A DNA stretch of 37,716 bases from Lysobacterales bacterium (lineage in GTDB: Bacteria; Pseudomonadota; Gammaproteobacteria; Xanthomonadales; SZUA-36). The notes under the pieces were generated by a model, which was not told where the DNA came from, ran no database searches, and was given only the letters and a program-made list of their open reading frames with translations. A program made the translations under genes and the position numbers. The stretch is taken from assembly GCA_013001885.1 (NCBI GenBank), contig JABDLD010000055.1:1-37716 (forward strand), given 5' to 3'. This document shows positions 15,593 to 27,120 of this stretch, piece by piece. Each line of letters starts with the position of its first letter. The stretch's first letter is position 1.

Positions 15593-15891
15593 CTACTCCC
15601 TGTCGGCCGCGCCATCCTTGACCTCAGGGACCACCTGGTAAAATTCTTCTTGCTCCTTGACCATTCCCAACTCGCTCCTTGCGCGCTCCTCAACCGCCTG
15701 CAGCCCCTGGCGCAAGTCCTCAACCTCGGCCTGCAATTCCCGGTTCCGCTGCGCCAGCGCCTCATTTTCACGAACCTGCTGCTCAACCCGGAGTTCCAGC
15801 CTGGCGACATCGCTGTAGCCGCCCTCACCAAACCACATTTTCAGCTGCAGCGCGATGAACAGCAGCAGCAGGATGATCAGCAGCGAGCGCA

Positions 15892-25521: not shown

Positions 25522-25537
25522 CGCAAGGAACACTGGT

Positions 25538-25582
25538 GACAGAGTAAAGGGGCAGGATAAATTCCTGGCCCTTTACTCTGTC
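25538..25582. terminator. Long inverted repeat between parC and the repeat-protein gene; terminator or REP-like element
   Basis: GACAGAGTAAAGGGGCAGG (25538-25556) and CCTGGCCCTTTACTCTGTC (25564-25582) pair at 18 of 19 positions around a 7-base loop, ATAAATT. Four more bases on each side can pair with one wobble. It lies between convergent genes, so it can terminate both; the flanks are pyrimidine-rich (CACTCTTTCC) rather than a clean T-run. From memory, the GACAGAGTAAA type of arm resembles dispersed palindromes near REP-associated tyrosine transposases in proteobacteria. No such transposase is in this window. Confidence 0.7.
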
Positions 25583-25613
25583 ATCACTCTTTCCACTCTT
25601 TAGTTCAAATCTT

Positions 25614-27059
25614 TCATTGATTCGCGCAACGCCAGTTTACGGTATTTCGGTAAGCATCCGGAAAGTCCACACCGGCACCGTCGTAAGTTTCCTGACCCGG
25701 TGTACCACAATAACCGCACACCTCGTTGCAATTTCCACCGTACAGATCGGGTGCGTTGTAGCCAAGCGAGTTACAGGCCTCGATCGTGTTATAGGTGCCG
25801 CCACCAAGCCCGGCTGAAATCCAAGCGGTATCGGAATCGGCGCGACAGACTTGCCAGTCAGCGCCACTGGCCACACCCGCGTTACCGGTTTGCCCGACGA
25901 CTGGTGGTACAAATCCCCTGTAGCAGCGCCAATTGACGGTGAGTGAGTAAGCATCTGGAAAGCCCACACCAGCACCGTCGTAAGTCTCGTCACCCGGTGT
26001 ACCACAATAACCGCACACCAAATCGCAATTTCCACCGTACAGATCGGGTGCGTCGTAGCCAAGCGAGTTACAGGCCTCGGTCGTGTCATAGATGCCGCCA
26101 CCGGACCCGGCTGAAATCCACGCGGTACTGGAATCAGCACGACAGACCTGCCAGTCAGCACCACTGGCCACACCCGCGTCACCGGTTTGCCCGACGGCCG
26201 GTGGTGCAAATCCCCTTAAGCAGCGCCATTTGACGGTGAGTGAGTAAGCATCTGGAAAGCCCACACCAGCACCGTCGTAAGTTTCCTGACCCGGTGTCCC
26301 ACAATAACCGCACACCAAGTCGCAATTTCCACCATACAGATCGGGTGTTTCGTAGCCGAGGGAGTTACAGGCCACGATCGTGTTATAGATACCACCACCG
26401 GACCCGGCTGAAATCCACGCGGTATCAGGATCAGCGCGACAGACTTGCCAGTCAGCGCCACTGGCCACACCCGCGTCACCGGTTTGCCCGACGACCGGTG
26501 GCACAAATCCCCTGTAGCAGCGCCAGTTGACGGTGAGTGAGTAAGCATCTGGAAAGCCCACACCAGCACCGTCGTAAGTTTCCTCACCCGGTGTACCACA
26601 ATAACCGCACACCAAATCGCAATTTCCACCGTACAGATCGGGTGCGTCGTAGCCAAGGAAGTTACAGGCCTCGATCGTGTTATAGGTGCCACCACCGGGC
26701 CCGGCTGAAATCCACGCGGTACTGGAATCGGCACGACAGACTTGCCAATCCGCACCATCTGCAACGCCTTCATTTCCGGTGATGCCGACGCCAGGAGGAA
26801 CGAACGTTTCGAAACTGTCGCGGAAAATAAAAGGAGGAGTTACAGCGAGGGAAACTGATTTGACTTTAGTAACCTTGGTTGTTACTCCGGCAGAGTTTTG
26901 GGATAGAGAAGATGAAGCATCGATAACAGCCCGATCCTGCTTGGCAGATTTTGCCTGGGCATCTGCACTACCGGAGATCAGGACGACGAACAAGAAGAGT
27001 AGGATTGAGAACTTGCCGGTAGCAGAACACCGCCTGTGAAAAACCTTGTAAGCACCCAT
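25614..27059 (-). CDS. Secreted protein of four near-identical 99-residue cysteine-rich repeats
   Basis: No known family recognised. The 481-residue protein starts at ATG 27059 with GGAG at good spacing (a longer frame from a TTG is unlikely). It has a basic N-terminus, a hydrophobic signal segment (FSILLFLFVVLISGSADA) and a Ser/Thr/Lys-rich linker ending FIFRDSFET. Residues 86-481 are exactly four 99-residue units with no tail. Each begins F(V/A)PP, contains DWQVCRAD, TAWISAG, LGY, DLYGGNC, VCGYCGTPG, ETYDGAGV and FPDAY, and ends WRC. Each has six Cys, so three disulfides per unit are likely after export. Secretion and a binding or surface role are inferred. A sigma70-like promoter lies upstream, so it is probably transcribed alone. 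Confidence 0.8.
   Translation of the reverse strand: MGAYKVFHRRCSATGKFSILLFLFVVLISGSADAQAKSAKQDRAVIDASSSLSQNSAGVTTKVTKVKSVSLAVTPPFIFRDSFETFVPPGVGITGNEGVADGADWQVCRADSSTAWISAGPGGGTYNTIEACNFLGYDAPDLYGGNCDLVCGYCGTPGEETYDGAGVGFPDAYSLTVNWRCYRGFVPPVVGQTGDAGVASGADWQVCRADPDTAWISAGSGGGIYNTIVACNSLGYETPDLYGGNCDLVCGYCGTPGQETYDGAGVGFPDAYSLTVKWRCLRGFAPPAVGQTGDAGVASGADWQVCRADSSTAWISAGSGGGIYDTTEACNSLGYDAPDLYGGNCDLVCGYCGTPGDETYDGAGVGFPDAYSLTVNWRCYRGFVPPVVGQTGNAGVASGADWQVCRADSDTAWISAGLGGGTYNTIEACNSLGYNAPDLYGGNCNEVCGYCGTPGQETYDGAGVDFPDAYRNTVNWRCANQ
25617..26804 (-). repeat. Four tandem 297-bp repeats within the secreted-protein gene
   Basis: The units lie at 26508-26804, 26211-26507, 25914-26210 and 25617-25913 in gene order. 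The same anchor string recurs at 25924, 26221 and 26518, exactly 297 bases apart. The units are strongly conserved at the DNA level, with scattered single-base changes; the last unit is the most changed near its end. Such arrays arise by unequal recombination or slippage and can vary in copy number between strains. Confidence 0.9.
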
Positions 27060-27120
27060 TGATTTGGCTCCATCGTGAGAGAGGCAGCACAGAATCGACA
27101 ACAATTGAATAATTAGCTTG

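Follow-up and report, generated by a model that had tools for sequence, protein, structure and literature searches.

A four-copy array of a six-cysteine domain family without a library model, a candidate multivalent binder from a Lysobacterales bacterium

A protein encoded in the window (the whole stretch of DNA analysed, 37,716 nt) carries four tandem copies of a domain whose family exists without a model in Pfam, NCBIfam or PHROGs and occurs in five phyla, in bacteria as well as archaea. We refer to it as the CGYC-tip domain, a name coined here for a module of about 97-118 aa with six core cysteines in the motifs W.VC, C..LG[YF], G.C...CG.C and TV.W.C. With its four copies, the window protein departs from the standard architecture of a single copy accompanied by a stalk, repeats or an anchor. 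On balance, we favour the reading that the array unit represents an undescribed, disulfide-rich and probably extracellular family serving as a ligand-binding head, and that the window protein is a multivalent binder that grew by unequal exchange.

The array gene and the elements within and beside it are located as follows.

25614..27059, minus strand: gene for the secreted four-unit protein of 481 aa, with the ATG at 27059 and the TGA stop at 25614-25616
26952..27059, minus strand: signal peptide, residues 1-36, with a basic n-region, a ILLFLFVVLISG core and an ADAQA cleavage-like end (by eye)
26808..26951, minus strand: linker, residues 37-84, Ser/Thr/Val-rich, with FIFRDSFE at its end (translation and Pfam)
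26511..26807, minus strand: unit 1, its first 60 nt diverged from units 2-4
26214..26510, minus strand: unit 2, its first 60 nt of unit-4 type and its last 47 nt of unit-1 type
25917..26213, minus strand: unit 3, the one modelled, its first 60 nt of unit-4 type and its last 47 nt of unit-1 type
25620..25916, minus strand: unit 4, its last 47 nt diverged from units 1-3
27068..27071, minus strand: GGAG, 8 nt upstream of the array gene's ATG and probably its ribosome-binding site (read from the sequence)
25529..25591, no strand: inverted repeat between the convergent parC and array genes, with 29-nt arms that are 86% complementary and 5 nt between them

The upstream GGAG favoured the ATG at 27059 over a TTG at 27104 as the start of the array gene. 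Behind a signal peptide that spans about 36 residues (by eye) and a linker of 48 residues, the four units are each exactly 297 nt, or 99 aa, and adjoin without indels. Tandem Repeats Finder reported a period of 297 with 3.7 copies, a score of 1815 and 0% indels, a result that excludes a chance origin of the repeat. The spacing of 297 nt bears out the first-pass annotation, which had described four units of exactly 99 residues following a signal peptide and linker. Its counts of six cysteines per repeat and its statement that the protein has no tail were also correct: the cysteines occupied identical positions in 4/4 units, in the order W.VC / C..LG[YF] / G.C...CG.C / W.C, and the protein stops 3 residues past the last cysteine of unit 4. 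Residues 1-84, comprising the signal peptide and linker, had no Pfam match, and translation and Pfam revealed no recognised anchor or stalk in the protein. An Rfam scan of the window gave no match. Elsewhere in the window's genome, the protein L155:1498-3018 (minus strand) has the C-terminal sequence FKDGFEK, resembling the FRDSFE that closes the linker; this may be a terminal motif, with the array fused behind it. As a genome-wide tag, FxD[GSATC]FE was discarded, since its 6 matches versus 5 in a reversed control represent no enrichment.

We compared the four units with one another at the protein and nucleotide levels. Amino acid identity between unit 3 (25917-26213) and the other three units was 83-88%, and nucleotide identity between unit pairs was 82-91%; the repeats are real, and the earlier wording "almost identical" overstates their likeness. 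The dS values between units (0.20-0.52) indicate that the copies are not recent, and the earlier claim that the array is young was accordingly not well supported. The dN/dS values (0.23-0.47) indicate that purifying selection acts on the protein. Variable positions across the four units numbered 74/297, which makes a simple assembly duplication unlikely. The differences were unevenly placed. In nt 1-60, unit 1 showed 58-60% identity to the others, compared with 92-95% among units 2-4, and in nt 251-297, unit 4 showed 68-70% identity to the others, compared with 94-98% among units 1-3. The interior (nt 61-250) was 88-94% identical across all six unit pairs, including 91-94% between unit 1 and the other units. 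Unit 1 held 20/21 of the private differences in nt 1-60 and unit 4 held 12/12 of those in nt 251-297, and in each case 0/20,000 label shuffles were as extreme.

In the tree, the four window units clustered apart from all relatives (support 100/100), indicating that the array arose within the window's lineage. From these patterns, we infer that units 2 and 3 are hybrids with a unit-4-type start and a unit-1-type end, as would be expected under unequal exchange. Exchange of this kind between two older, diverged units may have inserted the hybrids between them, and the array interior would then stay similar through exchange and purifying selection. The diverged outer edges of units 1 and 4 also lend support to the suggestion of the first-pass annotation that the array is kept uniform by recombination. 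The array illustrates a route of tandem-array growth in which the middle units resemble hybrids of two diverged end units.

The family had been called unrecognised, and library searches agreed: Pfam, NCBIfam, PHROGs and PDB sequences yielded no family match, and no well-described domain matched a unit. Across 36 aligned domains, Pfam and NCBIfam gave no common family, only stray single-member rows. The best stray row was DUF7556 (Pfam), found in one member of 36 at E 0.00026 and under its cut-off; in L084, DUF7556 scored 19.1 bits against a cut-off of 27. HVO_1552_C (Pfam) reached 19.4 bits against a cut-off of 27 for the whole array and matched 0/36 single members. A profile of the 36 rows had 0 matches among PDB sequences at E<=10, the best PHROGs match for the three domains scanned had an E of 0.22, and BFVD gave no E below 0.46. 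The TIGR02232/DUF4215 repeat profile covered the unit in 0/36 domains, its best stretches preceding the domain in relatives. Among the papers searched, the string VCGYC came up only in work on cone-snail venom, and a joint mention of SRCR, bacteria and myxobacteria only in a review.

A scan of genome contigs from 84,980 species with a degenerate DNA motif (GG.C..VCGYC) matched 76 stretches, and 33 of these contained 34 further copies of the CGYC-tip domain, with similarity extending well beyond the motif. The 33 loci comprised 22 myxococcal/deltaproteobacterial loci, 3 from Rhodobacteraceae/Paracoccaceae, 3 that we take to belong to the class Gammaproteobacteria (L063, L084, L095), 2 from Woesearchaeota, and 1 each from Comamonas, Flavobacterium (Bacteroidota) and Nitrospinaceae (Nitrospinota), a distribution that is biased and incomplete because the scan demanded G.C..VCGYC. 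Of the loci, L073 and L083 share a single Nannocystis pusilla contig. When a looser profile was applied to the loci from the motif scan, it additionally picked up L046, L057, L058, L069 and L107. In these, ORFs of 57-94 aa matched over 40-56 residues that surround the scan motif, and we took them as chance. That profile failed to recover L062, L074 and L108, whose scores reach E 3e-31 or better once the filters are switched off.

Profile searches of genomes, with chance matches left out for the first two groups, found the domain in 1/39 genomes of the window's family (the window genome itself), at least 1/369 of its class (again the window genome), at least 8/188 of the phylum of Nannocystis and at least 1/394 of the family of L053; the last three counts are lower bounds, as part of each genome's candidates was scored. 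The matches counted as misses, from raw tallies of 2/39 and 2/369, were G007 in the family search (23 aa with a stop, E 0.007) and G323 in the class search (two stops, E 2e-4). Profile E-values in the relatives' genomes ranged from 1e-26 to 1e-42. Among 16 such genomes, 15 had one copy and Sorangium had two, in neighbouring genes; G899, from the Nannocystis-phylum search, had three copies in its genome. The two Sorangium cellulosum genes (L067:2076-5195) are adjacent paralogues, each with a C-terminal CGYC-tip domain after a poly-glycine stretch. The tandem array was seen solely in the window protein; the other ORFs compared carry one copy each, which makes the window array the exception in copy number.

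Single-sequence searches recovered nothing beyond the array gene itself and weak matches: one second match in the window's own genome (E 0.049, judged chance) and matches in 1/39 genomes of the family, 9/369 of the class (8 of them weak) and 1/398 of the phylum. Five of the 8 weak class matches recurred in phmmer once translated: two appeared to be of multihaem-cytochrome type and two biotin synthase-like (by eye), and one had no recognisable identity. Searches for related loci found no relative in genome contigs or viral contigs with the four units, and none in viral contigs with the 36-row alignment. Against plasmids and phages, tblastn returned nothing at E 0.01 with the array, L053 or L045 as query, and with one unit at E 10 the best matches were only E 2 or worse. 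The motif scan of viral contigs matched 24 stretches, with a CGYC-tip domain in none (by eye). These empty searches leave a phage or plasmid origin without support. The patchy spread of the domain suggests horizontal transfer; the third-position GC of the array gene, 0.533 compared with 0.60-0.77 in seven window genes, fits such transfer and does not prove it.

We then examined the cysteines across the family. The six core cysteines were present in 42/42 extracted domains (4 window units and 38/38 relatives); extraction demanded the four central ones, and the first and last, though free to vary, were lost in none. Ten domains found by profile in the Nannocystis-phylum search also had six cysteines in 10/10 cases (9 by pattern, L150 by eye), and three of them replaced CGYC with CGFC (L147), CGHC (L146) or CGTC (L150). 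A first accessory pair, with one cysteine before W.VC and the other in ..TSC after CGYC, was complete in 29 domains and wholly absent from 12; the two co-occurred in 29/29 domains where either was present and both sites were covered, and L113, whose ORF starts inside the domain, covers only the second site. The second accessory pair occurred together in 19/20 domains, L113 having one of the two, and in L093 the cysteines are shifted nearby. That each pair is gained and lost together suggests two additional disulfides beyond three core ones, and the domain would be held by those three core disulfides. W32 and W95 were invariant in the 36-row alignment and Y69 was nearly invariant in the wider set, which makes a glycan a fair first guess as ligand. 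The alignment and the structural model further indicate that the WQVC, AWISAG, GGNC, VCGYC and WRC motifs, picked out earlier, belong to a genuine compact domain, of which they form the conserved core.

The tree separated a 6-Cys side, which includes the window units, from an 8-10-Cys side (support 100/98). Beyond the window units, the 6-Cys clade consists of L053, L079 and L117 (Paracoccaceae/Rhodobacteraceae), L092, L147 and L148 (from the Myxococcota searches), and L055 and L114 (Woesearchaeota). Its members share with the window units the six core cysteines, VCRAD and W[RQ]C, at 44-54% identity to unit 3 (six rows, L147 and L148 lying outside the alignment), and L092 has two cysteines of its own. 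Unlike the window protein, they have one copy per protein, together with Ig-like, repeat, barrel-like (by eye) or C-terminal membrane regions. The 8-10-Cys clade includes Nannocystis, Enhygromyxa, Sorangium, Shewanella, Flavobacterium and others. It shares the six core cysteines and core motifs with the window units at 32-45% identity to unit 3, but differs by one or two extra co-occurring cysteine pairs and by a mostly C-terminal position after DUF4215, Stig1-type or coiled-coil-like regions.

A conserved CG.C could also act as a CxxC site in a redox or metal-binding domain. CG.C is retained in every domain seen, and DsbC has CGYC as its active-site motif. We regard this explanation as very improbable, because the position between CG and C is variable (Y, F, H, T), the remaining core cysteines are also kept, as expected of structural disulfides, and thioredoxin-family profiles matched over the domain in 0/36 members, with no thioredoxin-type fold named in the fold rows. 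One relative does contain a thioredoxin match, at residues 102-253 of L064 and before the CGYC-tip domain. This Flavobacterium protein (L064:2-3784, minus strand) combines a DsbA-like thioredoxin region (CPFG, lacking the second cysteine), a CGYC-tip domain and HYR domains in one chain, which also carries a C-type-lectin match just below threshold.

The position of the domain within the relatives was strongly biased. It lay 5 residues or fewer from the C-terminus in 27/34 instances and after a signal peptide (by eye) in 6/34 (L053, L055, L079, L094, L114, L117); in the remaining instance, L064, it was internal, after the DsbA-like region. It thus occupied one protein end in 33/34 relatives, with export judged by eye and several ORFs cut at a contig or locus edge, and the window protein also ends with its last unit. 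A Pfam scan for partner domains covered the proteins of 21 of the 34 instances. DUF4215 (L045, L047, L072, L083, L092, L096, L104) or Stig1 (L054, L062, L074, L108, L112) repeats scored above cut-off in 12 proteins in total. In L062, L074 and L108, which are myxococcal/deltaproteobacterial, long Stig1-type repeat arrays close in one CGYC-tip domain. Other partners above the Pfam cut-off were Big_12 (L079), HYR (L064) and IPTL-CTERM (L094), the last scoring 21.2 against a cut-off of 20.8 in Pfam and 16.2 against 20.5 in NCBIfam. Big_12 in L117 fell below the cut-off, and L053, L055, L084 and L117 had no Pfam match above it. Weak coiled-coil-type rows were obtained for L063 and L095 (Pfam), and L066 looked alike by eye. 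The archaeal proteins L055 and L114 end in a membrane-like segment (by eye), and a sortase-type anchor model scored at its cut-off in L055 (15.9 of 15.9) and below it in L114. An outer-membrane barrel perceived by eye in L053 and L079 was rejected, with no Pfam barrel match even at E<=10.

The carrier proteins look exported and often bear a stalk or an anchor, and a domain located terminally in them is most simply read as a binding head. A binding role had been proposed earlier; it stands as the best reading of the end placement in 33/34 relatives, as an interpretation of position. We predict that the CGYC-tip domain serves as a head that binds a ligand, with a glycan or other surface polymer as the most likely target. 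Each relative would present a single head, carried by repeats, by a stalk of coiled-coil-like type or by an anchored chain, and the window protein, with four heads after its linker, would be a secreted multivalent binder without a recognised anchor. A different reading takes the array as a structural or matrix protein: packed or cross-linked, its units would build a coat or biofilm matrix and would not bind ligands individually. The lack of a recognised anchor, the four similar units and the exchange between them are compatible with it. We consider it improbable, because the relatives carry a single domain, at one end in 33/34 and not as a building block, and the array has only four units. With no library model for a domain of five phyla, its carrier proteins likely lack annotation for what is probably their functional end. 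A definition of the CGYC-tip family offers a way into the question of which targets myxobacteria and other, scattered microbes contact through these proteins. As a soluble protein with four copies of the domain, the window protein would lend itself well to a search for the ligand.

We predicted the structures of single domains with AlphaFold2. Both models were confident (window unit 3: pLDDT 93.2, pTM 0.86; Nannocystis L045 domain: pLDDT 93.9, pTM 0.87) and contained short strands and a single helix, the latter located at C..LGY. Foldseek against the PDB gave no clear match (best E 1.8 and 2.7 for the two models) and no confident lectin or carbohydrate-binding domain among their rows. The best VIA-align row for both models was 4m1x (Z 5.6, 2.7 Å over 67 residues; Z 5.8, 2.3 Å over 66 residues), with Z values short of what the tool counts as meaningful. 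This entry is the p060 ring protein of Pseudomonas phage 201phi2-1; it differs in being a 71-73-residue phage protein with 9% identity to the modelled domain, and the similarity probably reflects a shared small beta arrangement. Weak structural rows also included C-terminal beta domains of glycoside hydrolases (Z 3.4 or less).

The domain could alternatively belong, as a strongly diverged member, to a known disulfide-rich fold such as SRCR or WSC/PAN, with a kinship visible only in a solved structure; binding would then be expected and only the label would be new. SRCR domains are extracellular modules of about 100 aa that come in forms with 6 or 8 cysteines, carry C..LG within a helix and form tandem arrays in some proteins. 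The CGYC-tip domain is like SRCR in size, cysteine versions, C..LG helix and occurrence in a tandem array, and its C..LGY helix followed by a Gly/Cys-rich stretch, with 6- and 8-10-cysteine versions, is reminiscent of SRCR groups A/B and WSC. In contrast, 0/36 members matched the SRCR profile and 0/36 the WSC or PAN profiles of Pfam at E<=1 (HMMER filters drop most matches above 0.1), the PDB sequence search was equally empty, and no SRCR, WSC or PAN chain was named among the Foldseek and VIA-align rows for the two confident models, kinship being compatible with a missing row. We therefore judge such membership rather unlikely. From the models, it is possible that the fold is new. A broader proposal, which we put forward tentatively, is that this is a new-fold extracellular binding domain carried among bacteria and archaea by horizontal transfer and placed at the tips of surface proteins, with the window protein as a secreted four-headed version enlarged by unequal exchange.

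Finally, we inspected the genomic neighbourhood. To the left of the array lies the convergent parC (named from its own sequence and its parE neighbour). To the right, 142 nt away and in the same direction, lie genes for a FabG-like reductase and an extracellular-type polyhydroxyalkanoate depolymerase (both above the NCBIfam cut-off), followed by alpha/beta hydrolase-like, acyl-CoA ligase-like and ketoacyl-synthase III (above cut-off) genes, a TetR regulator and a divergent TonB-dependent receptor. Nothing was found that ties these neighbours to the function of the array gene. A secreted antagonist, that is, a disulfide-stabilised inhibitor or toxin-like protein directed against competitors or predators, would likewise be secreted and disulfide-rich, and the patchy distribution would suit exchangeable weapons. 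No immunity-like partner gene was recognised beside the array, and the relatives look like surface proteins bearing stalks, repeats or anchors, which makes an antagonist quite improbable.

In four congeners (L158-L161), parC is directly followed by a convergent SufS-type cysteine desulfurase-like gene (by eye; 4/4 genomes), and this gene had no tblastn match in the window. With the array gene in that place in the window, across the 25522-25613 gap, the array sits at a break in gene order. The inverted repeat in this gap was not flagged by a terminator scan, and its core, GACAGAGTAAAGGG, was absent from the parC loci of the four congeners; it is possibly a shared transcription end or bidirectional terminator, or a mobile palindrome. 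A separate short tandem repeat, with a period of 18 and 2.7 copies, lies at 15842-15890 of the window.
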